A stretch of 64,000 nucleotides of DNA from Rheinheimera salexigens (GTDB lineage: Bacteria > Pseudomonadota > Gammaproteobacteria > Enterobacterales > Alteromonadaceae). The stretch is from positions 557,466-621,465 of the forward strand of contig NZ_MKEK01000001.1 in NCBI RefSeq assembly GCF_001752395.1, written 5' to 3'. A model generated the notes under the pieces. That model did no database searches, was not told the DNA's origin, and saw nothing but the letters and a program-made list of their open reading frames with translations. Positions 28,344 through 49,275 of this stretch are shown here, one piece after another. Both the position numbers and the translations under genes were made by a program. Numbering within the stretch: position 1 is the stretch's first letter; each line of letters starts with the position of its first letter.

Positions 28344-28769
28344 ATGCTCAAATTCAATGAATCTTTACCGATGAAGTTGGTTGCCGCCAGAGAAGTCACG
28401 ATGTCTTTTTTTCGGCCTATATTGCATGAAGTTGATTTTACCGATCAGCAATGGCGCGTGTTAAGAGCCTTAAGTGAGTTTAGTGGTTTAGAGTTTAAAG
28501 AGTTAGCCAAGCTAACCTGTATTCTAAGTCCAAGTTTAACTGGTATTATTAAGCGCCTTGAAGAACGAAACTTAATTTATCGTGAAAAATCTCAACAAGA
28601 TCAGCGCTGTACATTGTTATTTTTAACTCCTGAAGCAACGCAAATTGTTGATGAAGTCAGTGTGCAGATAGAAAAACGTTATGCGCAATTTAAGAAAAAA
28701 TTTGGCGCAAAAAAATTAGAGCGTTTACTAAAGCTATTAGATGAAGTCGAGACTTTACCTTTCTTTTAA
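28344..28769 (+). CDS. MarR-family regulator resembling HpaR
   Basis: A ~141-residue winged-helix regulator. It follows the HpaR pattern of E. coli (regulator of homoprotocatechuate degradation): LVAAREVTMSFFRPIL, FTDQQWRVLRAL, CILSPSLTGIIKRLEERNLI (recognition helix) and DQRCTLLFLTPEA (wing). HpaR-type proteins usually repress aromatic catabolic genes and respond to phenolic acids. It stands directly upstream of the catabolic island and is the obvious candidate regulator. The start is uncertain: ATG at 28344 has AGGA 12 bases away; a TTG at 28320 would add eight residues. Confidence 0.85.
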   Translation: MLKFNESLPMKLVAAREVTMSFFRPILHEVDFTDQQWRVLRALSEFSGLEFKELAKLTCILSPSLTGIIKRLEERNLIYREKSQQDQRCTLLFLTPEATQIVDEVSVQIEKRYAQFKKKFGAKKLERLLKLLDEVETLPFF

Positions 28770-29314
28770 TTCCTTACCTCAGCAATAATAAGCTTGCAGC
28801 AATGAATTCAAACGGGTTACTTGCAAGCCAAGCTCAAGCCCTGTCTAGTTAAATTCTGTCGAAAGCGAACATTTACTACTTCAGCTTTATCCTTCACTGA
28901 TGATTTATCCCTATTATTTCTAAAAAATATTAACCGTACAATATAGCTATATGAACCTTATCTTGAATAAAATTTTTGTGTGAGTTTTAATCAAATTCTA
29001 ATTGATTGATTCACTTAAAATTATTTAACTTGTTAAGTTATACTTGGCGATATTTTAGTGCGTTATGTATGGTATTTTTATTCTCAAATTAAAATTTTAA
29101 TTGATTTGTTTTAGAGTAAATACGTTACCTAAATATAATTTATTTTTTATCATTAGTAATTAATTGATATATAACAATATGTTGATTTGTTGTCTGTGAT
29201 AAAAGCCCTTGTTTTTAGCAGGGTTGCCTTTTGCTTACTTGACACGACTACTTATTAAGCAATAGATTGAGCTAACAGTTAAAGTTAACATGCTAACTAT
29301 TAAAGGGTAGGAAT
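28770..29314. other. 545-bp A+T-rich region before the TonB receptor, with promoter and palindromes
   Basis: No credible ORF. Near the right end TTGACA (29239-29244), 18 bases, TAGATT (29263-29268) could be the island promoter, with AAGTTAAC (29282-29289) just after the predicted start. Palindromes: TAACTT-GTT-AAGTTA at 29026-29040, and a perfect 16-bp AATTAAAATTTTAATT at 29087-29102. The half-site AAGTTA also occurs upstream of the MarR gene (28289-28296). High A+T content raises the chance of random matches. I see no clear terminator for the MarR gene. Confidence 0.45.
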
Positions 29315-31552
29315 ATGTCGAATGGTAAAGCGAAGTACACTTATATTGCTTTAGCAATAAGCGCTGCATTAACAAGCTCACTTGCTCAAGCTCAACAAGA
29401 AGATGAATTTAAAGGTATTGAAAAAATTGTAGTCACTGCGCAAAAGCGGGTGCAAAGTTTGCAAGAAGTACCGGCATCTATATCGGCCTTTGGTGCCAAT
29501 GAGATGAAAGAAAATCAAATGGTTAAAATTGACGATGTTATCTCGGCAACACCTAACCTTAGTTTTACCCCTTTCTCCGAAGCCGACCCACAGTTATCTA
29601 TTCGTGGTATTAGCTCAACTGCAGACGGTGTCGGTGGCGATCCTTCTGTAGTCGTTTTTATTAATGATATTGCAATTAACCGAGCAGGTGGCGCTAACTT
29701 AGACATTTATGACTTAGAGCGAGTTGAAGTTATGCGCGGCCCGCAGGGCACTTTATATGGCAAAAATGCTGTTGGTGGAGCCATTAATTTTATTACTAAA
29801 GCTCCAGAAGAGTTTTTTAGTGCAGAAGTCTCTGCCACTTTAGGTGACTATAATTTAAGAGAGCTTAAAGGTCACGTTAACTTTGCTATTGCTAGTGATA
29901 CTGCAGTACGTATTTCCGGATTAACTAAAGACCGTGATGGTTTCCAGAAAAACCTGGTTACTGGAAAAGATGTTGATGATGCTAATACTAAGAGCATTAG
30001 AGGGCAGATATCCCACAGCTTTGATAATGGTCTTGATGTGTTAGTCAGTACAGAATATACCAAAAATGATACTGCAGCGGGTAGCCGAGTACCCTTTCCA
30101 ATTGGTACCTTCGTTACAGACGGTTATGATGATGCTGGCTTAGTGCCAAATGACAATCCACGAGAAGTTGAACCCAATACAGATGGTTACTTTAAGCGCG
30201 ATGTATCCAATAGTTTTGTTAAAATCACCAAAGAATTAGATATCGGTACCGTCACTTCACTTACTTCGTATCGACATACTAAGTTTGATTGGTTACAAGA
30301 TTTAGTTGGTTTGCCTATTAGTGTGGTGCAATTAAAAACAGTAAATTTAGCTACCGAAAAAGATAAGCAATTTACTCAAGAATTGCGTATTAACGGTTTA
30401 AGCATGGCAGACAAGCTTAACTGGGTAGCAGGTGTTTATTATTCAACAGAAGATGTAGACCGCACCGAAAGCTACGATAGAACGTACCGCTTTTTATCTA
30501 CTCAGCAGCCGTTACCGGGTAAATCATTAGTGTCTTTCCCTGAGTTTGATCAATTTGCCACTATTGAATCAAAAGCGGTGTTTGCTCAAGGTACTTATGC
30601 TTTTACTGATAAATTAAATGTGACCATTGGTGGCCGCTATACGGTTGACGATAAAGATATCGATTTAGCCATAAACGATTTATTAGCCGGTAAAACACCA
30701 GGTCCAGATGAGATTTTTACCTTAGCCCCAGCCGATGAAGTTTATGCTATTACAGCATCTGACTCTTGGAGCTCATTCACGCCTAAAATTGCCGTTGATT
30801 ATCAATTAACAGCCGATGCTATGATCTATACCTCTGCAAGCAAAGGCTATAAAGCAGGCGGCTTCCAAAGTGCTCCAAGTAATAAAATCTCTGCCGAGCA
30901 ATCATTTGATCCAGAAGAAGTTATTAACTATGAAATTGGCGCTAAAACTCAATGGTTTAATAACAAAGTACGCTTAAACTCTAACTTGTTCTACATGGAT
31001 TATTCTAACTTACAGTTCTTCGAGCTAGTGGGAACTGGTGCCGATAGTTTGTTAGTAGTACAAAGCACTAATGCTGAAATTAAAGGCTTAGAATTAGAAA
31101 TGCTAGTGCGACCAACCCAAGATTTACAGTTAGGCTTTAACTATGCGTTATTGGATACCGAACTGGGTGCATATATTAACGCCGCCGGTAAAGACTTTAC
31201 TGGGAATAAGTTATCGCGCTCACCCGAGTCTAGCTACAGCTTATCTGCGCAATATTGGTTAGATTTAGCAGGTAAAGGCACGATGTCGTTCCGTACGGCT
31301 TATGAATATACCGGTGATCAATTTTTTGATGCTAACAATGACCCTGTTGTTGGTGGTGAGTCTGGCTATGGTTTATTGAATGCCAGTGTTCGTTACGAGT
31401 CAACCAGTGGTGATTGGAACGTAACGGCTTGGGCCAAAAACCTAACGGATGAGCTTTATCGTTCTACTTCAATTACTGCTGCAGATACTGGATTTGCTCG
31501 TATTGGTAACCCAAGAACAGTAGGTGTTACTTTCAATATGTACTTCGAGTAA
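29315..31552 (+). CDS. TonB-dependent outer membrane receptor
   Basis: Outer-membrane active transporter, 745 residues. Signal peptide (~1-26, ending SSLAQA), TonB box-like EKIVVTAQKR (~36-45), plug domain (VPASISAFGANEM, LSIRGISSTADG, VEVMRGPQGTLYGKNAVGGA, ~46-165) and a beta barrel ending GNPRTVGVTFNMYFE with the terminal aromatic residue. The barrel type (long loops, YxNxKGxKAGGF-like ASKGYKAGGFQSAP) is that of receptors linked to small organic molecules in sphingomonads and marine gammaproteobacteria, rather than siderophore receptors. It heads the catabolic island and presumably imports its substrate. Confidence 0.92.
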   Translation: MSNGKAKYTYIALAISAALTSSLAQAQQEDEFKGIEKIVVTAQKRVQSLQEVPASISAFGANEMKENQMVKIDDVISATPNLSFTPFSEADPQLSIRGISSTADGVGGDPSVVVFINDIAINRAGGANLDIYDLERVEVMRGPQGTLYGKNAVGGAINFITKAPEEFFSAEVSATLGDYNLRELKGHVNFAIASDTAVRISGLTKDRDGFQKNLVTGKDVDDANTKSIRGQISHSFDNGLDVLVSTEYTKNDTAAGSRVPFPIGTFVTDGYDDAGLVPNDNPREVEPNTDGYFKRDVSNSFVKITKELDIGTVTSLTSYRHTKFDWLQDLVGLPISVVQLKTVNLATEKDKQFTQELRINGLSMADKLNWVAGVYYSTEDVDRTESYDRTYRFLSTQQPLPGKSLVSFPEFDQFATIESKAVFAQGTYAFTDKLNVTIGGRYTVDDKDIDLAINDLLAGKTPGPDEIFTLAPADEVYAITASDSWSSFTPKIAVDYQLTADAMIYTSASKGYKAGGFQSAPSNKISAEQSFDPEEVINYEIGAKTQWFNNKVRLNSNLFYMDYSNLQFFELVGTGADSLLVVQSTNAEIKGLELEMLVRPTQDLQLGFNYALLDTELGAYINAAGKDFTGNKLSRSPESSYSLSAQYWLDLAGKGTMSFRTAYEYTGDQFFDANNDPVVGGESGYGLLNASVRYESTSGDWNVTAWAKNLTDELYRSTSITAADTGFARIGNPRTVGVTFNMYFE

Positions 31553-31640
31553 AGCAGTAGGGTTAATCTATAACAAAATTTAAAGGTGTCTAAATACTTG
31601 TATGCTAAGTGTTTAAGCACCTTAAGTTGGTGAGGCATAT

Positions 31641-32402
31641 ATGCGTTTAAAAAATAAAGTAGCCATTATTACTGGTGGAGCCAAAGGTTTCGGTGCGGCT
31701 ATGGTTCGTTTGTTCGTTGCTCAAGGAGCGAAAGTTATCCTAGCGGATATTGATAGCGAAAACGGTCAAGCGATAGCGGCCGAGTTGGGTGAAAACTGTC
31801 TATTTATGCGTTGTGATCATTGCGATAAAGCTAACAATGAATTGGTAGTAAAAACCGCGGTAGATACGTGGGGCGGCATCGACATTTTAATTAATAATGC
31901 AGGTATTGGCTGGACAGGTGATTTTATTGACGCTGATGATGAAGTACTGCAAAGGTTAATGACGATAAACCTAACCGGCCAATGGAATTTAACTCAAGCC
32001 GCTTTACCAGAATTAAGAAAAAGTGCCAAAAACAATGCCAATGGCACAGCGTTATTATTTACCTCATCTGGCCTTGGCTTGTATGGCGTAACTAAATCTT
32101 CTGCTTATACCGTATCAAAGCATGCTGTTATTGGTTTAATGCGCTCGTTAGCGGCTGAGTTAGGCCCTGAAAACATTCGAGTAAACGCTATTTGCCCTGG
32201 TATTGCTGATACCAATTTAGCGCGCAGCACAACCGCTTGGGGCGATGTCGATCAAGTTCTAAGTAAACTGGCTGAAAACACACCGTTACGCAAGTTAGCT
32301 GAGCCTATCGATATTGCCAATGCGGCACTATTTTTAGCGTCTGACGAAGGCCGTATGGTGCATTGCGTGGCATTACGGGTTGATGGCGGTGCACATACCT
32401 AA
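31641..32402 (+). CDS. short-chain dehydrogenase/reductase (SDR)
   Basis: A 253-residue classical SDR, NAD(P)-dependent alcohol/carbonyl oxidoreductase. Cofactor motif TGGAKGFG (11-18), acidic ADID after beta 2 (suggesting NAD preference), NNAG (85-88), catalytic Ser142/143, Tyr156 and Lys160 (YTVSK). C-terminal LRVDGGAHT is typical of SDRs that end in a VDGG motif. It lies 88 bases after the receptor and probably acts on an alcohol or ketone intermediate of the pathway. The exact substrate cannot be inferred. Confidence 0.92.
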   Translation: MRLKNKVAIITGGAKGFGAAMVRLFVAQGAKVILADIDSENGQAIAAELGENCLFMRCDHCDKANNELVVKTAVDTWGGIDILINNAGIGWTGDFIDADDEVLQRLMTINLTGQWNLTQAALPELRKSAKNNANGTALLFTSSGLGLYGVTKSSAYTVSKHAVIGLMRSLAAELGPENIRVNAICPGIADTNLARSTTAWGDVDQVLSKLAENTPLRKLAEPIDIANAALFLASDEGRMVHCVALRVDGGAHT

Positions 32403-32456
32403 GCCATTGGTCTAGGTCTTGGTTAATCAGATTAAATTAAGTAAGGCGTCATAATA

Positions 32457-33239
32457 ATGCTAATGCCAGATTATCAAGTTGCTGGTTCAGGTGAAACCAC
32501 CATTTATTTACTGCACGGTGCCTATGGTTCAAAAGACTATTGGCAGTATGAAATTAAATTATTAGTTGAACAAGGCTATCGCGTAGTGGCTTGGGACGCA
32601 CCAGGCTACGGCATAAGCCCACTGCCTGCGCAGTATTCAATCCGATTTTTAGCCCAAAGCTTTGTTAAGTTGCTTTATGCAACCTGTAGCAAGAGAAATA
32701 TATTATTTGGCCATAGTATGGGTGGGATTATTGCGCCAATGGTATATGCCTTAGCACCTGAAAAAATTAATGCTTTAGTCATTTCGGCCACGGTGGAATC
32801 TTTAGGTCATTTGTCTAAAGAGTTTCAAGATAACTTTATCCGTGAGCGAATTGCACCGTTGAATGCTGGTGTTGCCTTAGCCGATGCCGCTGCGCCATTA
32901 ATTAACGCCATGATGGGGCCTAAATCTACGGGCGCTCTGGTCGAGAAAGTGAAGCAAGTCGCATTAAGCACACCTATCGACACCTTTAAAGCCGCTATTC
33001 GCGCCATTGTTGAATACGATGGTCGTGGTGCAGTTGCTAAAATAAAAGTGCCTACGTTATGTATTGCCGGTGAGTTTGACCCTATCGGTAAGGTTGACAT
33101 TATGGCTGAAATGGCCAGTAAAATTGACAGCAGCACATTTACAGTCATCGATGGCACTGCACACTATGCTTGGGCCGAACAGCCTGAAGTTTTTAATCAA
33201 AAGTTATTCGCTTTTTTACGTCTAGCGCTTAAGCAGTAA
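32457..33239 (+). CDS. alpha/beta-fold hydrolase
   Basis: 260 residues, cytoplasmic, no signal peptide. Oxyanion motif HGAYGSKDYW, nucleophile elbow GHSMGG, acid in GEFDPIG and catalytic His in GTAHYAWAEQPE complete the triad. It resembles the MhpC/haloperoxidase-like group that includes C-C bond and ester hydrolases of aromatic pathways. It is 54 bases after the SDR in the same direction. It may hydrolyse an ester or a ketone product made by the neighbouring oxygenase. Confidence 0.88.
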   Translation: MLMPDYQVAGSGETTIYLLHGAYGSKDYWQYEIKLLVEQGYRVVAWDAPGYGISPLPAQYSIRFLAQSFVKLLYATCSKRNILFGHSMGGIIAPMVYALAPEKINALVISATVESLGHLSKEFQDNFIRERIAPLNAGVALADAAAPLINAMMGPKSTGALVEKVKQVALSTPIDTFKAAIRAIVEYDGRGAVAKIKVPTLCIAGEFDPIGKVDIMAEMASKIDSSTFTVIDGTAHYAWAEQPEVFNQKLFAFLRLALKQ

Positions 33240-33318
33240 CGGTTCATTAGTATGCCGTTGCTGTTTTTATTGTTTTCATCGCGGGTAAAACTGGTCACTA
33301 AATATTAAGGTAAAACTA

Positions 33319-34794
33319 ATGTTGAAAATAGAAAATAAAATTAAATTAACCATTAAAGATACTAATAAAAGCCCGTTTTTAACCGGTTTATTTCAATCGA
33401 TGGATACCGAATATACGGCGGACACCGATAGCCTAGAAGTGATTGGCGAAATTCCACAAGATATCGCTGGTGTATTTGTGCGTAACACCCATAACCAAGT
33501 TCACGAACCAATGGGCCATTATCATCCCTTTGATGGTGATGCCATGTTACATGCCGCTTATTTTAAAGATGGTAAAATGGAGTATCGTAATCGCTTTGTC
33601 CACACTACGGGTTACCTTGCTGAGCAAGCGGCCGGTAAGTCTTTATGGCCAGGTTTGCTGCACCCACAAGATGCGACTCGTCGTGGTTGGGGGGCTATTG
33701 GTGCCATGAAAGATAATGCTGGCACAGACGTTATTTGTCATGCTGGTAAGTTAATTGCTGTGATGTCGCAAGGTAGTGAGCCGTATCGTTTAGACCCGCG
33801 CACCTTAGAGAATTTAGGCGTGGATGCCAGCTGGGCCAAGCAAGTTAAAGAGGGCATTGCCGGTGAGTTTAAAGTAGACCACAAAACCGGTGATATGATT
33901 TTCCAAAACTACCCAATGACACCGCCATATATGAACTATGGTGTGGTCAATAAGCATAACGAGTTAGTGCATTATGTGCCAATTGAGTTACCTGGTGCGC
34001 GCTGGCCCCATGATTTAGGCATGACAGAAAACTACAGTATTCTGCATGACCTGCCATTCTTTTTCTCTGACGATAATACCGGTGGTAAGCCTAAGTTAGA
34101 GTTTTATCCTGAAGTGAAATCCCGTTTCGGCGTGATCCCACGTTATGGCCGCTCAGAAGATGTGCGCTGGTTTGAAGCCACGCCATGCTTTGTATTGCAC
34201 CTAGCTAACTGCTATGAAGATGGTGATGAAATTATCATGGACGGCTGTATTTCGTTAAACCCAGCCATGCCAGCAGTGGGTGATACCACCGATATGGATG
34301 CAAAAATATTACAACATTTAGATAAGCATAATACCCAAACTCGCTTATATCGCTGGCGCTTTAACTTGAAAACGGGCGAAACCAAAGAGCAGTTTTTAGA
34401 TCAAGAAGTAGTCGAGTTTCCGGTTTGTCGCAATGATTATAAAGGCTATAAATATAATTTTGCTTATACCAGCTTATTTGAAGCCGGGACTTGGAATATG
34501 TATGGCTTTAAAAAGTTTAATTTGTCCGCCGGAACCAGTGAGCGTTATGAATATGGTGAAAATCGCTATGGCGGTGAAGTACATATCGCTGCAAAGCTTA
34601 ATGGCATAGATGAAGACGACGCTTATATTATAACTTTTGTTCAAGATATGAATTTAGATCGCTCGGAATGTATTTTAATTGATGCCAAAAATATTGCGGC
34701 CGGCCCAGTCGCTCGGATTATTTTACCGCAACGTATCACTGCTGGCACGCATGCTTGTTGGGTTGAGTTAGATCGGATGAATGGTGAAAGATAA
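33319..34794 (+). CDS. carotenoid-oxygenase-family dioxygenase with atypical metal site
   Basis: 491 residues, RPE65/carotenoid cleavage family, non-haem Fe(II) enzymes that split C=C bonds of carotenoids, stilbenes or phenylpropenoids to aldehydes. Family landmarks: FVRNTHNQVHEPMGHYHPFD, GDAMLHAAYFKDGK, EPYRLDPRTLENLG. Three of the four Fe-binding histidines are clear: His231 (WPHDLGMTENY), His294 (FVLHLANCYEDGDE) and His478 (GTHACWVE). At the first site, where the family has a His in an AHPK-type motif, this protein reads AGEFKVDHKTGD: Glu183 stands at the His position and a His (188) at the later Pro. No signal peptide. Lignostilbene-type or vinylguaiacol-type cleavage is a better guess than carotenoid cleavage given its neighbours, but this is inference. 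Confidence 0.88.
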   Translation: MLKIENKIKLTIKDTNKSPFLTGLFQSMDTEYTADTDSLEVIGEIPQDIAGVFVRNTHNQVHEPMGHYHPFDGDAMLHAAYFKDGKMEYRNRFVHTTGYLAEQAAGKSLWPGLLHPQDATRRGWGAIGAMKDNAGTDVICHAGKLIAVMSQGSEPYRLDPRTLENLGVDASWAKQVKEGIAGEFKVDHKTGDMIFQNYPMTPPYMNYGVVNKHNELVHYVPIELPGARWPHDLGMTENYSILHDLPFFFSDDNTGGKPKLEFYPEVKSRFGVIPRYGRSEDVRWFEATPCFVLHLANCYEDGDEIIMDGCISLNPAMPAVGDTTDMDAKILQHLDKHNTQTRLYRWRFNLKTGETKEQFLDQEVVEFPVCRNDYKGYKYNFAYTSLFEAGTWNMYGFKKFNLSAGTSERYEYGENRYGGEVHIAAKLNGIDEDDAYIITFVQDMNLDRSECILIDAKNIAAGPVARIILPQRITAGTHACWVELDRMNGER

Positions 34795-35517
34795 ATGAGC
34801 GCGGCAATTAACTTAGTTTTGCTCCCTGGCTTAAACAATACTCAGGAAATCTGGCAGCCATTGTTAGCGCACTTGCCTAGCGAGGTTAACGCCTATGCAT
34901 TGCAGTGCCCAACTGTAGATGATGTGGATGCGATTGCCGATAGTTTGTTAGCTGAATTACCCGCGCAGTTTTATTTGTGTGGCTTTTCATTCGGTGGTTA
35001 TGTGGCGCTGTCTATTTTGCATCGTTATCCACAGCGGGTGCAGGGGCTTATTTTAGCCGGTACCAGCGCAAAAGCCGATTCGCCGCAACAAGTTGAGTTT
35101 CGCCGCAGTTTAATCGCGCGGTTACAAACCGAAGATTATCAGCAGATGATTAATCAGCAAGCGAGTAAAGCTTTTCATGCTGATAGCTTACTTAAACCGG
35201 AATTAATGCGAATTCGCCGTTCAATGATCAACAACTATGGTGCAGAGCGCTTTGTTGCTCATTTACAGGCCTGTATTGCCCGGCCAGATCGTGAGCAAGT
35301 ATTAACCGATATGACGATACCGTTATTAGTGATATCTGCGGTAGAGGATCAAGTGATGAGTATGGATAGCCAATTGGCCATGGCCAAGCTAGCTAAGGAC
35401 GCTGAACTTGCCATTATACAACATTCTGGTCACTTAATGCCGTTAGAACAGCCTGAGCAATTTGCTGCTGCGCTAATGAATTGGTTAACAAATTATATAG
35501 GACACGACCCAAAATGA
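34795..35517 (+). CDS. alpha/beta-fold hydrolase
   Basis: 240 residues. Oxyanion region LLPGLNNTQEIWQPL, nucleophile elbow GFSFGGYVAL, acid in SAVEDQVM and His in HSGHLMPLEQPEQF. The ATG directly follows the TAA of the dioxygenase gene with no gap, and its own TGA overlaps the next ATG, so translation is coupled on both sides. Coupling with the dioxygenase suggests consecutive steps. It is not closely similar to the other hydrolase at 32457. Confidence 0.88.
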   Translation: MSAAINLVLLPGLNNTQEIWQPLLAHLPSEVNAYALQCPTVDDVDAIADSLLAELPAQFYLCGFSFGGYVALSILHRYPQRVQGLILAGTSAKADSPQQVEFRRSLIARLQTEDYQQMINQQASKAFHADSLLKPELMRIRRSMINNYGAERFVAHLQACIARPDREQVLTDMTIPLLVISAVEDQVMSMDSQLAMAKLAKDAELAIIQHSGHLMPLEQPEQFAAALMNWLTNYIGHDPK

Positions 35518-37031
35518 ATAAGCTACTGCTAGCCTGCTTTTTATTAAGTTGTTTTTATCCTCAAGCTTATGCCAAAGATATGCAGCAAACCTGTTTATCG
35601 GTACAAGAGATATTACCTGAAGGTATTCAGTTAACTGCACCACCAAAGTTAGTCGAAATGGCTGGCTTGCCGGAGTTTTGTCAAATTAACGGCAAAATGG
35701 ACGGCTATATTGGTTTTGAAACTCGGTTGCCACTTCAAAAGTGGAATGGCAAGTTTATGATGGCGGGATGTGGCGGTTTATGTGGTGACGTGGTTGCCGA
35801 TAAAACCGGCTACTCTAATTCAATCAACTTTGCGGTGGCGCGTGGTTATGCGGCAACAGCGCATGATAGTGGCCATAGCGGTAAAAGTTCAGGCAGAGAT
35901 TGGATTGAAGAAGATCCTATCCAATTAGATTATTGGGCATATCAGTCTATCCCTGCGGTGGCTGAATTGAGCAAGCAGTTAGTGGCTAACTTTTACGGCA
36001 AAAAAGCCAAACAAAACTATTTTGCTGGTTGCTCTAATGGTGGTCGAATGGGCTTTATTGCAGCCCAGCGTTACCCGGATTTATTTGATGGTATTGCCGC
36101 TGGAGGTTCTATTATTGATTGGACGCTGAACTCTGGGCTATATGGCGCTTGGGTGATGCAACATCTGCATTTACCAAACGGCGTTAGTCGTTTTAGTCCA
36201 GATAATATTGAGCTATTACGTCAAGAAGTAATTGCTCAATGTGACAGTTTAGACGGTGTTAAAGACCAAGTCGTGTCTAATCCACAAGCTTGCCAGCTCG
36301 ATTTCAGCAAATTATCGTGCTCTAACCAAAACGAAACAGATTGCTTCAATGATAATCAAATTGAACATGTTAAAGCCGTGTATGCCGGTGTGACAGATAA
36401 AACCGGTAAGAAATTATTTACTGGTGTGCCTTATGGATCAGAGCAGCTATGGTCAATTTGGTGGTTAGGTAATGGTAAGCAAGCCGGTTGGGGCGCGTTA
36501 GCATCACAAAGTTTCCAAAATATGCTTTACAAACAACCTATTGGCCATAGTGTTGATATTCATAGCATTGATGTGGTTGATAACCTGCAAGCATTACAAA
36601 ATGGTGACTTAGCACGAGTGGGCAATGCGGTTAATTTAGACTTAAGCCAAATAGAAAAAAATAAAACCAAGTTTTTTATCTATCACGGCTGGGCCGATCC
36701 ATTAATTCCACCAGGAAGAACAGTTGAATATTATCAACAGGCCTATGCTCAAAGCCAAGATAAACAAGCCTTTACCGATAACATCCGCATGTTTATGGTG
36801 CCAGGTAATGGCCACTGCTGGGAGCAAAAAGGTGTAGCACCTGATTTGTTCGATCCTTTAATGGTATTAGAAGATTGGGTAGAAAAAGGCCAAGCACCAT
36901 ACAAAGTTGTGACGTATGAAAACGAAGTGGGTAAGGGAGATAACACCCGCTTATTATGTCCATTCCCGCAACAAGCTCAGTACAAAGGCAAAGGCGACAT
37001 TAAAAGTCATAAAAACTATCAGTGCAAATAG
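35514..37031 (+). CDS. exported tannase/feruloyl-esterase-family hydrolase
   Basis: 505 residues from MNKLLLACFLL, chosen because it gives a signal peptide (cleavage near AYA-KD) and an ATGA overlap with the upstream gene. The tannase-family catalytic set is visible: CSNGG with nucleophile Ser174, Asp in HGWADPLIPP and His in GNGHCWEQ. The Cys before the Ser and the Cys after the His match the disulfide that ties the triad together in this family. GCGGLCGD and AHDSGHSG are also typical. It would cut gallate, ferulate or similar phenolic esters in the periplasm, the first step after uptake by the TonB receptor. It is the strongest evidence that the island deals with aromatic esters. Confidence 0.9.
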   Translation: MNKLLLACFLLSCFYPQAYAKDMQQTCLSVQEILPEGIQLTAPPKLVEMAGLPEFCQINGKMDGYIGFETRLPLQKWNGKFMMAGCGGLCGDVVADKTGYSNSINFAVARGYAATAHDSGHSGKSSGRDWIEEDPIQLDYWAYQSIPAVAELSKQLVANFYGKKAKQNYFAGCSNGGRMGFIAAQRYPDLFDGIAAGGSIIDWTLNSGLYGAWVMQHLHLPNGVSRFSPDNIELLRQEVIAQCDSLDGVKDQVVSNPQACQLDFSKLSCSNQNETDCFNDNQIEHVKAVYAGVTDKTGKKLFTGVPYGSEQLWSIWWLGNGKQAGWGALASQSFQNMLYKQPIGHSVDIHSIDVVDNLQALQNGDLARVGNAVNLDLSQIEKNKTKFFIYHGWADPLIPPGRTVEYYQQAYAQSQDKQAFTDNIRMFMVPGNGHCWEQKGVAPDLFDPLMVLEDWVEKGQAPYKVVTYENEVGKGDNTRLLCPFPQQAQYKGKGDIKSHKNYQCK

Positions 37032-37073
37032 CAACGTTTTGACCCTATATATTCAGATAAAAGGTACAGCATA

Positions 37074-38555
37074 ATGGCAACGAAAACAGAATTTTTAGCA
37101 ACGCCAGATAAACAAAACTTTATTAACGGTCAGTGGGTTGCTTCTGTAAGCGGCGAGATGATTGACAGTATTAATCCAGCGACAGGTAAGTTAAACGGCC
37201 GTATCCCTGCTAGTAATAAACAAGATATAGACGCTGCTGTTGCCGCTGCTCGTGCTGCTTTTACTGACGGTGCTTGGCATGATTGCACGCCATCTGAGCG
37301 GTCAATATTATTATGGAAACTAGCCGATTTAGTCGAGCAGCACGCCGAAGAATTAGCCTACTTAGAAACAATCGATCAAGGTAAACCATTAAGTCATGCC
37401 ATATCAGAAATGAAAGGTGTTGCCGGCCAATATCGCTTTTACGCCGGTATGGCGACAAAAATCCAAGGTGAAACCTATTCACAATCGATGGACAGACATA
37501 ACCCCGCAGGTAAAAAAACCTTAGCTTATTCGGTAAAAGAGCCAATTGGGGTTGTGGCTGCCATAGTACCGTGGAATGCACCGTTAATTTTATTAGCCTT
37601 TAAATTAGCACCAGCTTTAGCCACAGGTTGCAGTGTGGTGGTTAAACCGGCTGAGTTAACTTCATTAAGCACGTTAAAATTTGCTGAGCTTATTCAGCAA
37701 GCGGGTTTCCCTGCTGGTGCCGTCAATATAGTCTGTGGCTATGGCCATACCGCTGGCGCTGCTTTAGCAGAGCATACTGATGTTGATAAAGTTAGCTTTA
37801 CCGGTTCAACCAAAACTGGCAAAGCCATTATAGATGCCGCCAAAACTAACTTGAAAAAAGTCTCTTTAGAGTTGGGGGGTAAATCACCGGTAGTTGTACT
37901 GCCAGATGCCAATATTGCAGAAGCGATTACCGGTGCAGTGCGTGCTATTACCTATAACAGTGGTCAAATTTGTATTGCCGGATCGCGGTTATATGCCCAC
38001 GAAGCTATTTATGATCAATTAGTTTCTGGCATTGTTAAGGTGTTTAAAACCTTAAAAATTGGTGACGGTATCAAAGCAGATACTATGATTGGTCCAATGG
38101 TTAATCAGCACCAAGCTAATATCGTAAAATCTTATATTGATGCGGGTATTGCTGAAGGCGCAGAGTTATTAACAGGTGGTAATCAGTTTGGCGACACTAA
38201 CTGCTTTATTGAGCCAACAGTATTGTCTAATGTAAATAACACAATGAAATGCGTGCAAGAAGAAATTTTTGGTCCGGTACTAGTCTGCCAAAAATTTAGC
38301 GATGTCAGTGAAATACCAGCATTAGCGAACGATACTATTTATGGCTTAGGCGCCAGTATTTGGACTCAAGATATTAGTGTTGCTAATCGTTTAGCCAGTC
38401 AAATAAAGGCCGGTGTAGTATGGATTAATGGTCACAATGTGTTTGACCCAGCCTTTCCAATGGGCGGATACAAACAGTCAGGCTGGTCAAGAGATGCCGG
38501 TACTCAAGCAGTAGAAAACTTCTTAGAGACTAAAACAATCATCACTTTGATATAG
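37074..38555 (+). CDS. aldehyde dehydrogenase
   Basis: 493 residues, NAD(P)-dependent. Motifs: IVPWNAPLIL (oxyanion Asn), FTGSTKTGKAI (cofactor), SLELGGKSPVVVLPDANI (general base Glu), NSGQICIAGSR (catalytic Cys) and EEIFGPVLVCQKF. The sequence is of the betaine-/aromatic-aldehyde type, not the GabD type found at 26178. In this context it would oxidise the aldehyde released by the dioxygenase to an acid ready for the CoA ligase. It starts 42 bases after the esterase gene. Confidence 0.92.
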   Translation: MATKTEFLATPDKQNFINGQWVASVSGEMIDSINPATGKLNGRIPASNKQDIDAAVAAARAAFTDGAWHDCTPSERSILLWKLADLVEQHAEELAYLETIDQGKPLSHAISEMKGVAGQYRFYAGMATKIQGETYSQSMDRHNPAGKKTLAYSVKEPIGVVAAIVPWNAPLILLAFKLAPALATGCSVVVKPAELTSLSTLKFAELIQQAGFPAGAVNIVCGYGHTAGAALAEHTDVDKVSFTGSTKTGKAIIDAAKTNLKKVSLELGGKSPVVVLPDANIAEAITGAVRAITYNSGQICIAGSRLYAHEAIYDQLVSGIVKVFKTLKIGDGIKADTMIGPMVNQHQANIVKSYIDAGIAEGAELLTGGNQFGDTNCFIEPTVLSNVNNTMKCVQEEIFGPVLVCQKFSDVSEIPALANDTIYGLGASIWTQDISVANRLASQIKAGVVWINGHNVFDPAFPMGGYKQSGWSRDAGTQAVENFLETKTIITLI

Positions 38556-38628
38556 GTTAATTTTGCTTAGGTTCAGTAGCGATTAAAGTGCTAATGGACC
38601 TAAGCCACCATAAAAAATAGGCAATTCT

Positions 38629-40065
38629 ATGAGCTCTGAGACAGTGATAACGTCAACACCAGCTGATTCAACTAAGGCGGAAACGGCAAGCACAGCGACG
38701 CCTAACCCAGCGATAGCCAAGGCAACAGTACTGCCAGCTTTGGTTAAGCATGAAAATCCGGTTTATTCTTGGTACGTGGTTATTATACTAATGCTGTGTT
38801 ACGCGTTAGCCTTTATTGACCGACAAATTTTAAGTTTATTAGTTGACCCCATTAAAGCCGACTTAGGTATCAGTGATACTCAGTTTGGGTTGCTGCAAGG
38901 CTTAGCTTTTGCGTTATTTTATACCTTTGTTGGCTTGTTTTTAGCCAATTTAGCCGATAAGAAAAAGCGAGTGAAAATTATCGCCATTGGTGTAGCGGCC
39001 TGGAGCGTAATGACCGCGATGTGTGGTTTAAGCAAAAGCTTCTTCCATATGTTTTTAGCCCGAGTCGGTGTTGCTGTGGGTGAGGCCGCATTATCACCCG
39101 CCGCTTATTCAATAATTAGTGATTACTTCCCAAAACGAAAACTGGGTAAAGCCATGAGCGTTTACACCGCGGGCGTTTATTTAGGCAGTGGTTTAGCGTT
39201 TTTAATTGGTGGTTTGTTAATTGTTGCCTTGCCAGATTCGTTAACCTTACCCATCGTTGGTGAGCTTAAAAATTGGCAATTAATTTTTATTAGTATTGGT
39301 TTGCCTGGATTGTTGTTTGCGTTGTTATCGCTGACCATTAGAGAGCCTAAGCGTGGTCGTTATCAAACAGCTACAGATATTAAAGTTGATAAGCCCAGTA
39401 GCGTTGAGAACGAGCAGTCAATCACACATTCGTTAAAATTCTTTAAAAGCAAATGGCCGATGTTTGTCCAGCATAATATCGGTTTCGCAATGCTGACTTT
39501 AGTTGGCTACGCTTTTCATTCTTGGGCGCCTAGTTTTTTTATCCGTACTATGGCATGGTCACCAGAAAAAACCGGTATGGTATATGGGACTATAGCCATT
39601 ATCGCTTCGCCTTTAGGCGTGTTATGTGGAGGTATCTTAGGCGATTGGATTTTAAAACGAGGCTATAACGACGCATTTTTTAAAGTCCCTTTCTATGGTG
39701 CTATCGCCTTATTGTTACCCGCAGGTTTTGCTACTTTAACCACAGATACGACGCTGGTGTTAACTTTAATTACCTTATTGATGTTTTTCTCAAGTTTTCA
39801 TGGTGGTATGGCCGTTGCTTCACTACACACTATTACGCCTATTCAATATCGAGCCCAAGCAACCGCGATATATTTATTTGTGATTAACTTAATAGGTCTA
39901 GGCCTAGGGCCAGTATTAGTGGCGGTATTAACCGACTATGTATTCCAAGATCCTACCGCTGTTGGTAAATCTCTATCTTTAGTGAGCTTTATTATTATCC
40001 CTATAGCAATACTGCTATTGTGGAGAACGAAAGCCATGTACAACCGAAAATATAATCAAAAATAG
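38629..40065 (+). CDS. MFS transporter, spinster-like
   Basis: 478 residues with 12 predicted transmembrane helices. A ~45-residue polar Ser/Thr/Ala-rich N-terminal tail (TPADSTKAETASTATPNP) precedes TM1 (YSWYVVIILMLCYALAFIDR). MFS loop 2-3 motif is NLADKKKRVKI, and AFIDRQILSLLVDPIKADLG is typical of the spinster-like carriers common in sphingomonad and marine catabolic clusters. Its place between the dehydrogenase and the CoA ligase suggests uptake of the esterase products across the inner membrane. Substrate and direction are inferred from context. Confidence 0.88.
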   Translation: MSSETVITSTPADSTKAETASTATPNPAIAKATVLPALVKHENPVYSWYVVIILMLCYALAFIDRQILSLLVDPIKADLGISDTQFGLLQGLAFALFYTFVGLFLANLADKKKRVKIIAIGVAAWSVMTAMCGLSKSFFHMFLARVGVAVGEAALSPAAYSIISDYFPKRKLGKAMSVYTAGVYLGSGLAFLIGGLLIVALPDSLTLPIVGELKNWQLIFISIGLPGLLFALLSLTIREPKRGRYQTATDIKVDKPSSVENEQSITHSLKFFKSKWPMFVQHNIGFAMLTLVGYAFHSWAPSFFIRTMAWSPEKTGMVYGTIAIIASPLGVLCGGILGDWILKRGYNDAFFKVPFYGAIALLLPAGFATLTTDTTLVLTLITLLMFFSSFHGGMAVASLHTITPIQYRAQATAIYLFVINLIGLGLGPVLVAVLTDYVFQDPTAVGKSLSLVSFIIIPIAILLLWRTKAMYNRKYNQK

Positions 40066-40078
40066 CGGAGAGTTCGTT

Positions 40079-41806
40079 ATGCAGAATATTTACCAGCAGC
40101 ATTTAGATAAAGTGCCAGCAAATTTTGAGGCGTTAACACCGCTGCACTTTATGCAGCGCGCGGCTGGCGTGTATCCAACTAAAACCGCGGTCGTCTATGG
40201 CGATTTACGCCGTAATTGGCGAGACGTGTATCAGCGCTGTTGTCAGTTTGCTTCGGCATTAGTCAGTGCGGGTATCGGCAAGGGTGATACGGTATCAGTC
40301 ATGGCGCCGAATATTCCAGAAGTATTTGAAGCCCATTTTGCTATCCCAATGTCCGGTGCGGTACTAAACACCATTAATACCCGCTTAGATGTTGCCAGCA
40401 TTAGTTTTATTTTAGAACATGCTGAAACCAAGCTGTTATTGGTTGATTTAGAGTATTACCCTCAAGTAATGCAAGCGCTAGTCGAGCTGGCGCAGCCACC
40501 TAAAGTTATTGTTATCAATGATAAAAGCTATCAAGGTACTACTCTAGGCACTATGCAAAGCACTATGCAAGATACTAAGCAAGATACTAAGCAAGATACT
40601 AAGCAAGGCACTGCACAAGGTGCAGCGCAGAGTGCTGCTAATGTTGCGGCAGCGGTGTCAGTAAGCGAAATTGACTATGAGCAATTTATTGCTAGCGGTG
40701 ATAAAGATTACGCTTGGCAAGCCCCGGCTGATGAATGGGATGCCATTAGTTTAAATTATACTTCTGGTACCACAGGCAACCCTAAGGGTGTTGTATATCA
40801 TCATCGTGGTGCTTATTTAAATGCCATTAATAACGCTGTTACATGGAACATCCCCCAGCACTTTAGCTATTTGTGGACCCTACCTATGTTCCATTGTAAT
40901 GGTTGGTGTTTTCCATGGACAGTGGCGGCTAAGGTTGGCGTTAATATTTGTTTAAGAAATATTGATGTTGGTGAAATTTTCAACTTAATTAAAACCGAAA
41001 AAGTGAGCCACTTTTGCGCTGCGCCCATTGTATTAAATATGCTAAATAATGGCACAGCAGCAGATAAAGCCGGTTTAAACCATAGCATTAAAGTTATGAC
41101 GGCAGGCTCGGCACCGCCAGCTGCGGTTATTCAAGGCATGGAAGAGTTGGGCATTGATGTTACCCATACTTATGGTTTAACCGAGACTTATGGCCCTTCA
41201 GTGGTGTGTGCATGGGACAGTGATTGGGACAACCTCGATATCTCTGAACGGGCACGGCTTAAATCACGCCAAGGGGTCAGAAGTAATTTATTGGAAGGCT
41301 TAATGATAGCCGATCCCGTTACCATGCAACCGGTGCCGCAAGATGGCGAAACCATGGGCGAAGTAATGGTGCGCGGTAATATCGTGATGAAAGGCTATCT
41401 TAAAAATGCTAATGAAACTAAAAATTGCTTTGCCGAGGGCTGGTTTCACACCGGCGATTTGGGTGTCTGTCATGAAAATGGCTATATCGAACTAAAAGAT
41501 CGCTCGAAAGATATTATTATTTCGGGTGGCGAAAATATTTCTAGTATCGAAATTGAAGGCGTTTTATATCATCATCCTGATGTATTAGAGGCTGCAGTAA
41601 TAGCTAAGCCGGATGGTAAGTGGGGCGAAGTGCCACTGGCCTTTGTTAAACTTAAACCGACAGCTACCGTAACAGCTGAAGAGCTAATAGCGTTTTGTAA
41701 GACCCGATTAGCTAAATTTAAAATACCGAAGGAAATTCGTTTTATTGAAATACCTAAAACATCGACCGGTAAAGTACAAAAATATTCTTTACGAAAGTTG
41801 ATCTAA
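40079..41806 (+). CDS. acyl-CoA synthetase (AMP-forming) with tandem-repeat insertion
   Basis: 575 residues; activates a carboxylic acid as acyl-AMP then acyl-CoA. P-loop YTSGTTGNPKGVVYHH, YGLTETYGPS, GWFHTGDLG, DRSKDIIISGGENIS and the catalytic Lys in KTSTGKVQKYSL are all intact. It is in the medium-chain/methylmercaptopropionate (DmdB-like) branch by eye. It is ~30 residues longer than usual because of a four-residue repeat, [D/G/S]T[K/M/A]Q, at residues ~157-184, between the N-terminal subdomain and the P-loop. As the last gene of the run, it should activate the acid made by the aldehyde dehydrogenase. No beta-oxidation or ring-cleavage genes follow. Confidence 0.9.
   Translation: MQNIYQQHLDKVPANFEALTPLHFMQRAAGVYPTKTAVVYGDLRRNWRDVYQRCCQFASALVSAGIGKGDTVSVMAPNIPEVFEAHFAIPMSGAVLNTINTRLDVASISFILEHAETKLLLVDLEYYPQVMQALVELAQPPKVIVINDKSYQGTTLGTMQSTMQDTKQDTKQDTKQGTAQGAAQSAANVAAAVSVSEIDYEQFIASGDKDYAWQAPADEWDAISLNYTSGTTGNPKGVVYHHRGAYLNAINNAVTWNIPQHFSYLWTLPMFHCNGWCFPWTVAAKVGVNICLRNIDVGEIFNLIKTEKVSHFCAAPIVLNMLNNGTAADKAGLNHSIKVMTAGSAPPAAVIQGMEELGIDVTHTYGLTETYGPSVVCAWDSDWDNLDISERARLKSRQGVRSNLLEGLMIADPVTMQPVPQDGETMGEVMVRGNIVMKGYLKNANETKNCFAEGWFHTGDLGVCHENGYIELKDRSKDIIISGGENISSIEIEGVLYHHPDVLEAAVIAKPDGKWGEVPLAFVKLKPTATVTAEELIAFCKTRLAKFKIPKEIRFIEIPKTSTGKVQKYSLRKLI
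40535..40630 (+). repeat. in-frame 12-bp tandem repeat in the CoA-ligase gene
   Basis: Units of 12 bases: three perfect copies of GATACTAAGCAA (40571-40606), flanked by diverged copies from 40535 to 40570 and 40607 to 40630, seven to eight units in all. The period keeps frame and encodes a polar four-residue repeat. Confidence 0.9.
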
Positions 41807-41833
41807 ACAGTAACCAAAACACTCCCCCTCAAG

Positions 41834-41867
41834 CGCTGCCAATTTGTTTTGGCGGCGTTTTTTTTTT
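41834..41867 (+). terminator. Rho-independent terminator closing the catabolic island
   Basis: CGCTGCCAA (41834-41842) pairs with TTGGCGGCG (41849-41857), one G-T pair, followed by ten T. It lies 28 bases after the CoA-ligase stop, indicating that the run of catabolic genes ends here. Confidence 0.88.
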
Positions 41868-44234: not shown

Positions 44235-44263
44235 TTGATAACATACAGGCATGTATGTATATT
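44235..44263 (+). promoter_or_regulatory. RND pump promoter with AcrR-like operator in the spacer
   Basis: TTGATA (-35, 44235-44240), 17-base spacer, TATATT (-10, 44258-44263). The near-palindrome ACATACAGGCATGTATGT (44241-44258) fills the spacer exactly and shares the ACATAC...GTATGT half-sites of the E. coli acrAB operator bound by AcrR. A TetR protein bound here would block polymerase. The predicted start is ~44270, leaving a ~55-nt leader. Confidence 0.75.
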
Positions 44264-44326
44264 GCACGACATTATTTTGCCGATTTTTTTCAATTATTTG
44301 AACGGCAGTTTTTTAAGGAACTTTGT

Positions 44327-45466
44327 ATGACATTAAAGCTAAAATTACTAGTAACCGCAGTGGCGAGTTTAATGCTAGTAGCCTGTAGTGAATCGGAGCA
44401 AGTTCAGGCACAACAGCAGGCACCAGAAGTGGAAGTAATCACTTTAACCACTACTAGTGTTGGCTTAACTACAGAGTTGCCAGGCAGAACCATTGAGTAT
44501 CGCCAAGCAGAAATTCGGCCGCAGGTAAGTGGTATTTTACAGCAACGTTTATTTCGTGAAGGCCAGCAGGTAGAAGCCGGAGAATTGCTGTATAAAATTG
44601 ATGCTGCAACTTATCAAGCAGCGTTAGCCAGTGCTAAAGCCAATGTTGCCAGCGCGAAAGCCGGCCAATTTAATGCGGCAAATAAGGCCAAGCGGATTAA
44701 AGATTTATTAGGTAGTAAGGTGGTTAGCCAGCAAGACTTTGACGATGCCAATGCATTGATGATGCAAGCTGATGCTGCCGTTGCTAGTGCTGAAGCGGCA
44801 CTGCAAAATGCGCAAATCAACCTCGATTATACTGAAATAACCGCACCAATAAGTGGCGTAATAGGCCGTTCAGCCGTTACTGAAGGTGCGTTATTAACAG
44901 CTAACCAAGCTCAAGGCTTAGCCACCATACGTCAATTAGATCCTATCTATGCTGATTTAACCCAATCCAGTACTGATTTATTAAGAATAAAGCGGCAAAT
45001 GCAACAGCAAAATAAGCAGCAGGTGAGTGTCGATTTAATTTTAGACGATGGTTCTAAGTATGCAGAGCAAGGTAGCTTAGAGTTTTCAGAAGTTAATGTT
45101 GACCCCAGTACGGGCATGGTGACGTTACGCGCTGTATTCGATAACAAACAATCTGACTTACTGCCAGGCATGTTTGTGCGGGCGGTTTTACATCATGGTA
45201 GTAATGATAATGCTATTTTAGTGCCACAAGCGGCTGTTAGCCGCACGGCAAAAGGCGAGGCAATGGTTATGGTTGTTAATGCCGATAATCAAGTAGAGTC
45301 TCGTATAGTGATATTGGGCCAAAGTACTGACGGCAATTGGGTAGCTGAATCTGGGGTTAAAGCGGGAGAGCAAATAATTATTTCCGGCTTACAAAAAGTG
45401 CGTGCGGGTGCAACGGTTCGTGTTGTGCAAGCCGGTAATAAAACCACTAACACTGCTGCGCAGTAA
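44327..45466 (+). CDS. acrA: RND efflux periplasmic adaptor (AcrA/MexA type)
   Basis: 379 residues from MTLKLKLLV; AAGGA lies eight bases upstream, and the operator overlaps the region before the longer frame. Lipobox LVAC (Cys about 20) makes it a lipoprotein anchored to the inner membrane. Domains: beta-barrel/lipoyl halves (PGRTIEYRQAEIRPQVSGIL, LDYTEITAPISGVIGRSAV), alpha hairpin between them (ASAKANVASAKAGQFN...), and the membrane-proximal domain at the C-terminus. It bridges the inner-membrane pump and a TolC-type channel; no channel gene is present, as in E. coli acrAB. The permease starts 12 bases later. Confidence 0.93.
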   Translation: MTLKLKLLVTAVASLMLVACSESEQVQAQQQAPEVEVITLTTTSVGLTTELPGRTIEYRQAEIRPQVSGILQQRLFREGQQVEAGELLYKIDAATYQAALASAKANVASAKAGQFNAANKAKRIKDLLGSKVVSQQDFDDANALMMQADAAVASAEAALQNAQINLDYTEITAPISGVIGRSAVTEGALLTANQAQGLATIRQLDPIYADLTQSSTDLLRIKRQMQQQNKQQVSVDLILDDGSKYAEQGSLEFSEVNVDPSTGMVTLRAVFDNKQSDLLPGMFVRAVLHHGSNDNAILVPQAAVSRTAKGEAMVMVVNADNQVESRIVILGQSTDGNWVAESGVKAGEQIIISGLQKVRAGATVRVVQAGNKTTNTAAQ

Positions 45467-45478
45467 ACGGAGTAGCAG

Positions 45479-48400: not shown

Positions 48401-48586
48401 TTCTCGTTAGGCGTATTGCCGTTAGTGATTAGTAGTGGGGCTGGTTCTGCAAGTCGAAATGCTATTGGTACCGGCGTGTTAGGCGGTATGATCTCAGCAA
48501 CGGTATTAGCGATATTCTTAGTGCCTATTTTCTATCTAGTGATTATGAAAATCTTTGATAAAAAACATGCAGTAACTAAACAGTAA
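45479..48586 (+). CDS. acrB: RND efflux pump permease (AcrB/HAE1 family)
   Basis: 1035 residues, proton-driven trimeric multidrug transporter. The N-terminus [17 protein letters not shown] is diagnostic of HAE1 pumps. Proton-relay residues are present: paired Asp in [17 protein letters not shown] (near residue 405) and the Lys in [14 protein letters not shown] (near 940). Twelve transmembrane helices and two large periplasmic loops are in the expected places. The C-terminus is short, without the HAE1 His-rich tail. It is the second gene of the operon under the AcrR-like operator, so substrates would include dyes, detergents and drugs, by family. Confidence 0.95.
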
Positions 48587-48634
48587 CTAAGCAGTAACGC
48601 TTAGCAAGAGTAGAAAAACTTGTTGTACCTTTGG

Positions 48635-48670
48635 CCGGCTTTTAGTGCGAACTAACTAGCCGGTTTTTTT
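48635..48670. terminator. terminator between convergent acrB and tetR genes
   Basis: CCGGCT (48635-48640) pairs with AGCCGG (48658-48663), with an inner TTAGT/ACTAA stem, followed by seven T on the plus strand. It overlaps the last codons of the TetR gene. Confidence 0.75.
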
Positions 48671-49275
48671 AATCCCAACAACATAGTGTCAACAAAAGCT
48701 GGCGCATTAATGCTCAGGTCACACTGTAAAGGTTTAAGTAAAAAGTGACTGATAATGCCGGCAATATAGATATGTAATGACATTGCCGCTAAGCGTGGGC
48801 AAACCCCTTCACGCAGCAGTCCTGCTTGTTCTGCGCGACTAAAAGCGCGCTCTAATACCGCTATAGCCAAGGTATCGAGTTCATCTTGTTTAGTGACAAC
48901 AGGATTAAGCTCATCAATATATTCACAGCGATGAAACACAATGGTCAATACGCGATGGTGTTGCTCACTCTCAGCCACTAAGCGTAAACAGTTAACCATT
49001 AACTCCCGAATTTGCTTAAAAGGATCGCTACTTTCGTCTTTATTTACATTGGCGAGTAAGTGTTGAAATGGCAGGCGCACCCGCTCTAACATGGCATTAA
49101 ATAAATCGGCTTTATTTTCAAAGTGCCAATAAATAGCGCCACGGGTAACATTAGCTTGCTGGGCTATTTTCGCTAACGTGGTTTGCGAGACACCATGCTT
49201 ATAAAATAAATATTCTGCAGCATCTAAAATTGCAGCACGAGTACCTTCTGCATCCGCTTTAGTCCGTCTTGCCAT
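48652..49275 (-). CDS. acrR: TetR-family repressor, AcrR/TtgR-like
   Basis: 207 residues. N-terminal helix-turn-helix (ILDAAEYLFYKHGVSQTTLA, IAQQANVTRGAIYWHFENKA) matches the AcrR/MtrR/TtgR group almost word for word in the recognition helix; the C-terminal ligand-binding domain is variable. The start MARRTKADAEGTRAAIL is typical. In most genomes the regulator is divergent and next to the adaptor; here it lies beyond acrB and convergent, so it would not share the operator region at 44241 and its own promoter would need a separate site. I infer that it controls the pump from the match of family and operator type. Confidence 0.85.
   Translation of the reverse strand: MARRTKADAEGTRAAILDAAEYLFYKHGVSQTTLAKIAQQANVTRGAIYWHFENKADLFNAMLERVRLPFQHLLANVNKDESSDPFKQIRELMVNCLRLVAESEQHHRVLTIVFHRCEYIDELNPVVTKQDELDTLAIAVLERAFSRAEQAGLLREGVCPRLAAMSLHIYIAGIISHFLLKPLQCDLSINAPAFVDTMLLGLKKPAS

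Follow-up and report, generated by a model that had tools for sequence, protein, structure and literature searches.

We analysed a 64,000-nucleotide stretch of the Rheinheimera salexigens genome (contig NZ_MKEK01000001.1, positions 557,466 to 621,465 of the forward strand; hereafter the window) and discuss here the gene set at 28344-41806, which includes a member of the carotenoid-cleavage-dioxygenase (CCD) family. All ten open reading frames (ORFs) of this region are intact and lie on the plus strand. The first (28344..28769) encodes an HpaR-type MarR regulator; downstream of it, nine same-strand genes occupy 29315-41806. Labelled from Pfam and NCBIfam profile matches, they are, in order: a TonB-dependent receptor whose signal-like N-terminus was read by eye (29315..31552; PF00593, 147.3 bits; PF07715, 68.6 bits); a short-chain dehydrogenase/reductase (SDR) (31641..32402; PF13561, 197.5 bits); an alpha/beta hydrolase, abh1 (32457..33239; PF00561, 88.6 bits); the CCD-family protein, matched over its full length (33319..34794; PF03055, profile positions 3-468 of 469, 384.8 bits against a cut-off of 27); a second alpha/beta hydrolase, abh2 (34795..35517; PF12697, 59.5 bits); an esterase of the tannase/feruloyl-esterase/MHETase family with a signal-like N-terminus (35514..37031; PF07519, 324.8 bits); an aldehyde dehydrogenase (ALDH) (37074..38555; PF00171, 565.9 bits); an MFS transporter (38629..40065; PF07690, 145.8 bits); and an acyl-CoA ligase of the PRK08162 subfamily (40079..41806; NF006020, 877.3 bits against a cut-off of 677). 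Both profile collections concur with the labels that a preliminary description of this DNA had given to the ten genes, and its remark that none of them encodes an enoyl-CoA hydratase or a ring-cleavage enzyme was confirmed.

From the TonB receptor onward the intergenic gaps are 88, 54, 79, 0, -4, 42, 73 and 13 bp. The 4-bp overlap between abh2 and the tannase gene follows from preferring ATG 35514, most likely the true start, over the mechanical TTG at 35481. Behind the ligase gene lies an intrinsic terminator-like site (41831..41860, plus strand; 12 pairs, then a T run), the strongest in our terminator scan, although the total number of such sites (17, against a mean of 15.2 in shuffles) is not above that of shuffled sequence; promoter-like sites were not enriched either (35 found, 39.5 expected). 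From this layout we infer that the nine genes form one transcript, and very probably they constitute a catabolic operon. The preliminary description had also counted the MarR gene in the unit: its co-directional run of nine genes and strong terminator stand, the membership of the regulator is less sure, as 545 bp separate it from the receptor gene. Two near-identical A/T-rich 15-nt repeats upstream of the receptor (28993-29007 and 29092-29106, plus strand) are possible operators, a weak assignment since chance could also produce them. A MarR match at E 1e-10 occurs in three of 31 same-genus genomes, the host included. One of these (G021) matches at 33% identity; the other (G025) carries a piece 92% identical over 78 residues, which ends early, has different neighbours and occurs in a genome that lacks the operon. 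This shortened gene (L073:8694-8930) adjoins a 620-aa ORF that looks transporter-like by eye, and TonB-receptor-like ORFs. Because of the 545-bp gap and of this same-genus regulator without the nine genes, the link between MarR gene and operon is uncertain; the gene need not be part of the operon and is perhaps transcribed separately. The regulator itself scores 164.6 bits with the HpaR equivalog model (TIGR02337), above the cut-off of 121.2. HpaD of homoprotocatechuate degradation is a LigB-type ring-cleavage enzyme, and a LigB match is absent from the host genome, so a homoprotocatechuate locus is not what we find here.

The metal site of the CCD sets it apart. In the available part of a study of SYK-6 LSD4, the four His ligands and three second-shell acids are called remarkably conserved in all characterised CCDs; in LSD4 these are His167, His218, His284 and His476, with Glu135, Glu353 and Glu418 bonding the last three (PMC8191317). 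We mapped the LSD4 residues through alignments with isozyme I, whose chain numbering was taken one lower, by counting. At the metal-site positions the window CCD has Glu183, His231, His294 and His478, and at the second-shell positions Gln151, Glu366 and Glu420. Thus His218, His284 and His476 have His equivalents, while His167 corresponds to Glu183, and the equivalent of Glu135 is Gln151 whereas the other two acids are kept. Judged from the alignment, the window CCD belongs to the family but departs from the canonical four-His site, and its iron would be held by three His and Glu183.

The change is shared with a minority of relatives. Our homologue set, to which all counts out of 121 refer, comprises the window CCD and the best 120 of 2244 homologues (found at E 1e-100 when 8000 candidates were scored). 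Of the 121, 105 have His at position 183 and 16 have Glu, the latter being the window CCD and 15 listed proteins (P0003-P0010, P0013, P0037, P0058, P0075, P0076, P0090 and P0107). The other three ligands are His in 121, in 121, and in 120 with one gap. Glu366 and Glu420 are kept in 120 or 121, and position 151 is Gln in 120 and Asn in one, so that Gln151 appears older than Glu183. Among twelve generic CCD rows position 151 is Glu in eight, Gln in three and a gap in one, and in the Sphingopyxis CCD Arg occupies position 151 and Gln the equivalent of Glu420 (this second-shell alignment left out L038 and L039, which have internal stops, and its row L040, a wrong ORF, was disregarded). Glu183 also occurs in the CCDs of two SAR92/Porticoccaceae loci (L002 and L003). 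A quick maximum-likelihood tree of 134 rows (all 121 listed sequences, nine relative-locus CCDs and four plasmid CCDs) unites the Glu rows and these two in one group of 18 with an SH-aLRT of 100; outside it the tree has unresolved forks, and there are two long branches. Two label changes are counted on this tree because L002 and L003 were unlabelled. The clade holds SAR92/Porticoccaceae-named sequences and one Halieaceae-named sequence (P0058), and a further Halieaceae locus, L014, encodes a four-His CCD. Eleven further positions track Glu183 (shared by at least 14 of the 16 Glu sequences and by at most 15% of the others): position 182 adjoins the ligand, and 419 and 421 flank Glu420. A described CCD site of three His and one Glu was not found in our literature search, which had little reach into subscription papers.

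Such a site could mean that the protein has become an isomerase, another oxygenase or a scaffold without O2-dependent C=C cleavage, leaving the operon to work mainly by ester hydrolysis and aldehyde oxidation. The ligand that is changed is one described as conserved in all characterised CCDs (PMC8191317, available part), Gln replaces a second-shell Glu in 120 of 121 sequences, and the family includes, by entry name, a retinoid isomerohydrolase. Yet the three His and two second-shell Glu residues persist in 120-121 of the 121 sequences, and the changes of the Glu clade are coherent, unlike decay; we consider loss of cleavage distinctly unlikely. With fold and most of the site kept, the Glu183 clade would offer a natural exchange in which the role of one ligand could be tested.

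The surroundings of related CCD genes were compared in 28 confirmed loci out of 33 pattern matches (CCD identity 43-70%); several of these loci end at contig edges, so the neighbour counts are lower bounds, and the neighbouring ORFs scanned were a selection made on recurrence, size or position. Up to 5 kb from the CCD gene, abh1-type hydrolases occur in at least 19 loci, abh2-type in at least 21, both in at least 17, and TctC-type carboxylate-binding proteins in at least 19; BKACE is present in at least four (all Bacillota), NMO in at least seven, ALDH in at least six and a TonB receptor in at least four. The hydrolase matches are concentrated around the CCD: 41 within 5 kb (249.6 kb in total), 40 of them on the CCD strand, against a single one in the remaining 190 kb. 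Their catalytic triads (Ser87, Asp208 and His236 in abh1; Ser65, Asp185 and His213 in abh2) are kept in at least 93% of the 24 abh1 and 22 abh2 sequences that passed the thresholds set. Hydrolase-CCD-hydrolase is the conserved core of the operon, found across Proteobacteria and Bacillota and frequently with carboxylate-transport genes. The literature searched names no substrate for this module; finding one would reveal a further catabolic route common to very different bacteria. The two SAR92/Porticoccaceae loci even repeat the window order TonB receptor-SDR-abh1-CCD-abh2. Two loci are of note for their content: in Neobacillus citreus (L017:2609-12080) the CCD lies with TctA/TctC and a beta-keto acid cleavage enzyme (BKACE), and its neighbours also include a zinc alcohol dehydrogenase, an ALDH and an Amidohydro_2 protein; in Polaromonas sp. 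P2-4 (L028:8014-17400) the CCD, abh1 and ALDH matches are fragmented, and this copy looks decayed or poorly sequenced.

A second module goes with a more distant CCD, in Cupriavidus and in Sphingopyxis RW412, and holds an acyl-CoA ligase, an NMO, a thiolase and an AraC-type or winged-helix regulator, in some loci also SDR and ALDH. The wider CCD family frequently neighbours genes for acyl-CoA ligase, thiolase and an NMO that is FabK-like by its nearest solved relatives. Of the ORFs beside wider CCDs that we chose by size and position, a thiolase was found in four of four (a fifth thiolase lies elsewhere in L094, a locus of a same-family genome). Going by PF22691, and by lipid-transfer matches in the one that was compared with NCBIfam, these thiolases may be read as SCP2-type. 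Enzymes of that type work on branched or sterol side chains, a substrate range that favours, without proving, an isoprenoid-type acid. Both CCD types also stand together in a Burkholderiales metagenome-assembled genome (L018:1430-11512), on opposite strands and with NMO, ligase and thiolase matches.

On this evidence we tentatively read the gene set as an operon for an unsaturated, ester-linked, isoprenoid-like compound, with an apocarotenoid-type acid or ester as the leading guess. From family knowledge, the TonB receptor would bring the ester through the outer membrane, the exported esterase of the tannase family would release the acid and the MFS protein would take it up; abh1 and abh2 may act on further ester, lactone or C-C bonds; the CCD would use O2 to split a C=C bond, giving two carbonyl products; the SDR and ALDH would convert alcohol or aldehyde to acid, and the acyl-CoA ligase would pass the acid to beta-oxidation. 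The idea that the steps could feed one another thus holds up, the order being sensible by family, and no described locus with exactly these genes was found in the literature searched, as had been supposed. The general logic of the operon is ordinary, its key enzyme unusual. The nature of that enzyme gives the lead: compared with the PDB, the window CCD scores best with carotenoid 9,10-dioxygenase (226 bits), the best entry named lignostilbene dioxygenase reaching 146 bits and one named only dioxygenase 151; with a 54-row CCD profile the scores are 307 bits for carotenoid 9,10-dioxygenase and 223 for lignostilbene dioxygenase.

Several results weigh against this reading. The carotenoid-type lead rests on the 9,10-enzyme, because the other carotenoid-type enzymes do not outscore lignostilbene dioxygenase (146 bits; profile 223): apocarotenoid-15,15'-oxygenase reaches 143 bits (profile 196) and NCED 139 (profile 202). 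The NCBIfam apo-carotenoid and lignostilbene models give 222 and 212.5 bits, both far under cut-off (800 for the lignostilbene model). No substrate for any member of the window CCD subfamily appeared in the literature searched. A tannase was found within 5 kb of the CCD in none of the 28 loci (tblastn, E 1e-12), and the window SDR, ALDH and ligase are only 24-33% identical to their counterparts in the SAR92 loci, so that the pathway shared with relatives comes down to the core. Finally, an aromatic ester would better suit the tannase, the HpaR-type regulator and the ALDH.

The last point leads to the breakdown of a phenylpropenoid or stilbene ester, the substrate class originally proposed, in which the tannase would free a hydroxycinnamate-like or stilbene unit, side-chain cleavage by the CCD would yield an aromatic aldehyde, and ALDH and ligase would finish the conversion. 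The esterase belongs to the right family: besides its PF07519 score it has Cys173-Ser174 and His434-Cys435, and Cys-Ser...His-Cys is the tannase-family catalytic motif. Its nearest solved relatives are MHETase (188.6 bits) and feruloyl esterase B-2 (147.3 bits). The specificity residues of MHETase presumably lie in the segment between two aligned stretches; this segment does not align, and the acid specificity of the window esterase therefore cannot be read. The ALDH is nearest to a phenylacetaldehyde dehydrogenase (4o5h, 500.4 bits; retinal dehydrogenases ca. 400), the regulator is HpaR-type, and CCD-family enzymes turn isoeugenol and 4-vinylguaiacol into vanillin, according to the available part of PMC6700365. 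The CCD and the rest of the genome point the other way. In LSD4 the phenol-bearing ring is held by Phe59, Tyr101 and Lys134 (PMC8191317, available part). Their equivalents in the window CCD are Phe71, Leu113 and Ser150: the Phe is kept but Tyr and Lys are replaced, and therefore the lignostilbene phenol site is not. In the host genome, LigB, intradiol and homogentisate (HgmA) dioxygenases and PaaA/PaaC were unmatched, with positive controls (LigB matched in four of 14 genomes, Escherichia coli included) and with gentisate and other routes not searched; the catechol 2,3-dioxygenase model gave two weak matches, the best at 25.1 bits against a cut-off of 320.2, with no control above the cut-off. 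With the tested ring-cleavage families unmatched, a phenolic ring would probably be left over in this host, whereas CoA ligation and beta-oxidation could offer an isoprenoid acid a way in. The lack of a tannase in the 28 loci counts here too. Since Tyr and Lys are gone, the best solved match is carotenoid 9,10-dioxygenase and no LigB, intradiol, homogentisate, PaaA or PaaC match was found, the phenolic reading is weakened, and we hold it to be unlikely. A PaaN-type protein (L094:641-2350; 595.9 bits, cut-off 578.75) was seen in the same-family genome, near its set of distant CCD, ligase, NMO and thiolase.

As a further alternative, the substrate could be a bulky polyene pigment ester (e.g. a xanthophyll ester or aryl polyene) from algae or other bacteria. 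An exported esterase and a TonB receptor suit a bulky ester, and the best CCD match is a carotenoid-cleaving enzyme. SAR92/Porticoccaceae and Halieaceae are marine groups, and sequences so named make up part of the Glu clade. The TctC-type proteins in at least 19 of the 28 loci suggest a small acid instead, and the Halieaceae locus L014 has the four-His form, so that a pigment ester seems very unlikely to us.

The operon was probably acquired by this host (genome 3.44 Mb, 99.98% complete), to judge from gene distribution. Our same-genus test covered the CCD and the tannase among the nine genes: neither the CCD (E 0.001) nor the tannase (E 1e-20) has a match in any of 30 other same-genus genomes, which is why the operon looks acquired. 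CCD-family matches occur in 11 of 98 genomes searched, the host among them, and the remaining ten are at most 29% identical. Upstream of the gene set lie an ALDH gene and a short ORF that appears cold-shock-like by eye, downstream RmuC, an HlyD-type protein and a pump-sized ORF; none bears an obvious relation to the operon. In another same-genus genome (G020) RmuC adjoins the HlyD-type gene and the operon is absent. Together with the MarR piece in G025, likewise without the operon, this makes the nine genes look inserted between older neighbours. Foreign composition was tried as a sign of transfer, but the nine genes have a GC content of 0.40-0.46, near the 0.418 of the window, so composition gives no transfer signal. 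Further along the window (44255-49275) the HlyD-type protein and a 1035-aa ORF, taken for its RND pump partner, are followed by a TetR-type repressor on the opposite strand. Even taken together, close and wider relatives of the CCD are uncommon: counting the host, they occur in 13 of 398 genomes of the phylum (E 1e-100) and in five of 369 of the class (E 1e-60). The CCD P0003 and the tannase P0124 are each listed on a 5035-base contig, possibly one and the same, a hint that one close relative may hold both genes.

In its most specific form our proposal is that a three-His/one-Glu clade, whose carboxylate would have moved from the second shell to the first, acts in a transferable hydrolase-CCD-hydrolase module degrading an isoprenoid-type acid such as abscisate, with a cut equivalent to that at the carotenoid 9,10 bond; so stated, we regard it as doubtful. 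Abscisic acid degraders were considered as a direct precedent and set aside. Rhodococcus sp. P1Y converts abscisate to dehydrovomifoliol by enzymes not yet named in the available part of the report, and of glycolic, glyoxylic and acetic acid it grew on acetate only (PMC7996341, same part). By our reckoning a carotenoid-9,10-like cut of abscisate would yield dehydrovomifoliol and glyoxylate, so the failure of P1Y to grow on glyoxylate gives the idea no help; and Novosphingobium sp. P6W, an abscisate degrader with a plasmid in our collection, does not feature among the 16 plasmid records in which a CCD was matched at E 1e-40.

Among known systems, the top-scoring solved relative of the window CCD is the carotenoid 9,10-dioxygenase of PDB entries 9m3e, 9luz and 9m6z, which we take to be CCD1-type. 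It belongs to the same family, and where lignostilbene dioxygenases have Lys134 the window CCD has the segment MSQGSEPY and 9m3e has LSEGDKPY. The window enzyme differs from it in having Glu183 for the first His ligand and Gln151 for the first second-shell Glu, hence no four-His site, and in residing in an operon with hydrolases, an esterase and a ligase. The lignostilbene dioxygenases (isozyme I, 6ojr; SYK-6 LSD4) share the CCD family, the setting of aldehyde-making bacterial catabolism and the Phe59 equivalent Phe71, but score lower, and the window has Leu113 and Ser150 for their Tyr101 and Lys134. Lignin-dimer pathways lead, in the available part of PMC12997858, to vanillin and similar monomers. 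With MHETase and the fungal feruloyl esterase B, the window tannase shares the family and the Cys-Ser and His-Cys motifs. The plasmid loci of Polaromonas sp. P1-6 (L046) and Cupriavidus basilensis pRK1-2 (L047) combine hydrolases, TctC and a CCD at 58% identity, ordered abh-TctC-CCD-abh in the former and abh-abh-TctC-CCD in the latter; both are without tannase, and the C. basilensis CCD keeps four His, unlike that of the window. The C. basilensis plasmid also carries the second CCD module with NMO, ligase and thiolase: two distinct CCD genes in neighbouring modules (L047:1-13488), a pairing that hints at one pathway with two C=C cleavages in succession. The SAR92/Porticoccaceae loci L002 and L003 have CCDs that are 70% identical to that of the window and carry the same Glu; their receptors (32-33%) and SDRs (28-29%) are more distant and they have no tannase. 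With the Sphingopyxis RW412 set, their upstream ligase, NMO, SDR, ALDH and hydrolase share 53-65% identity.

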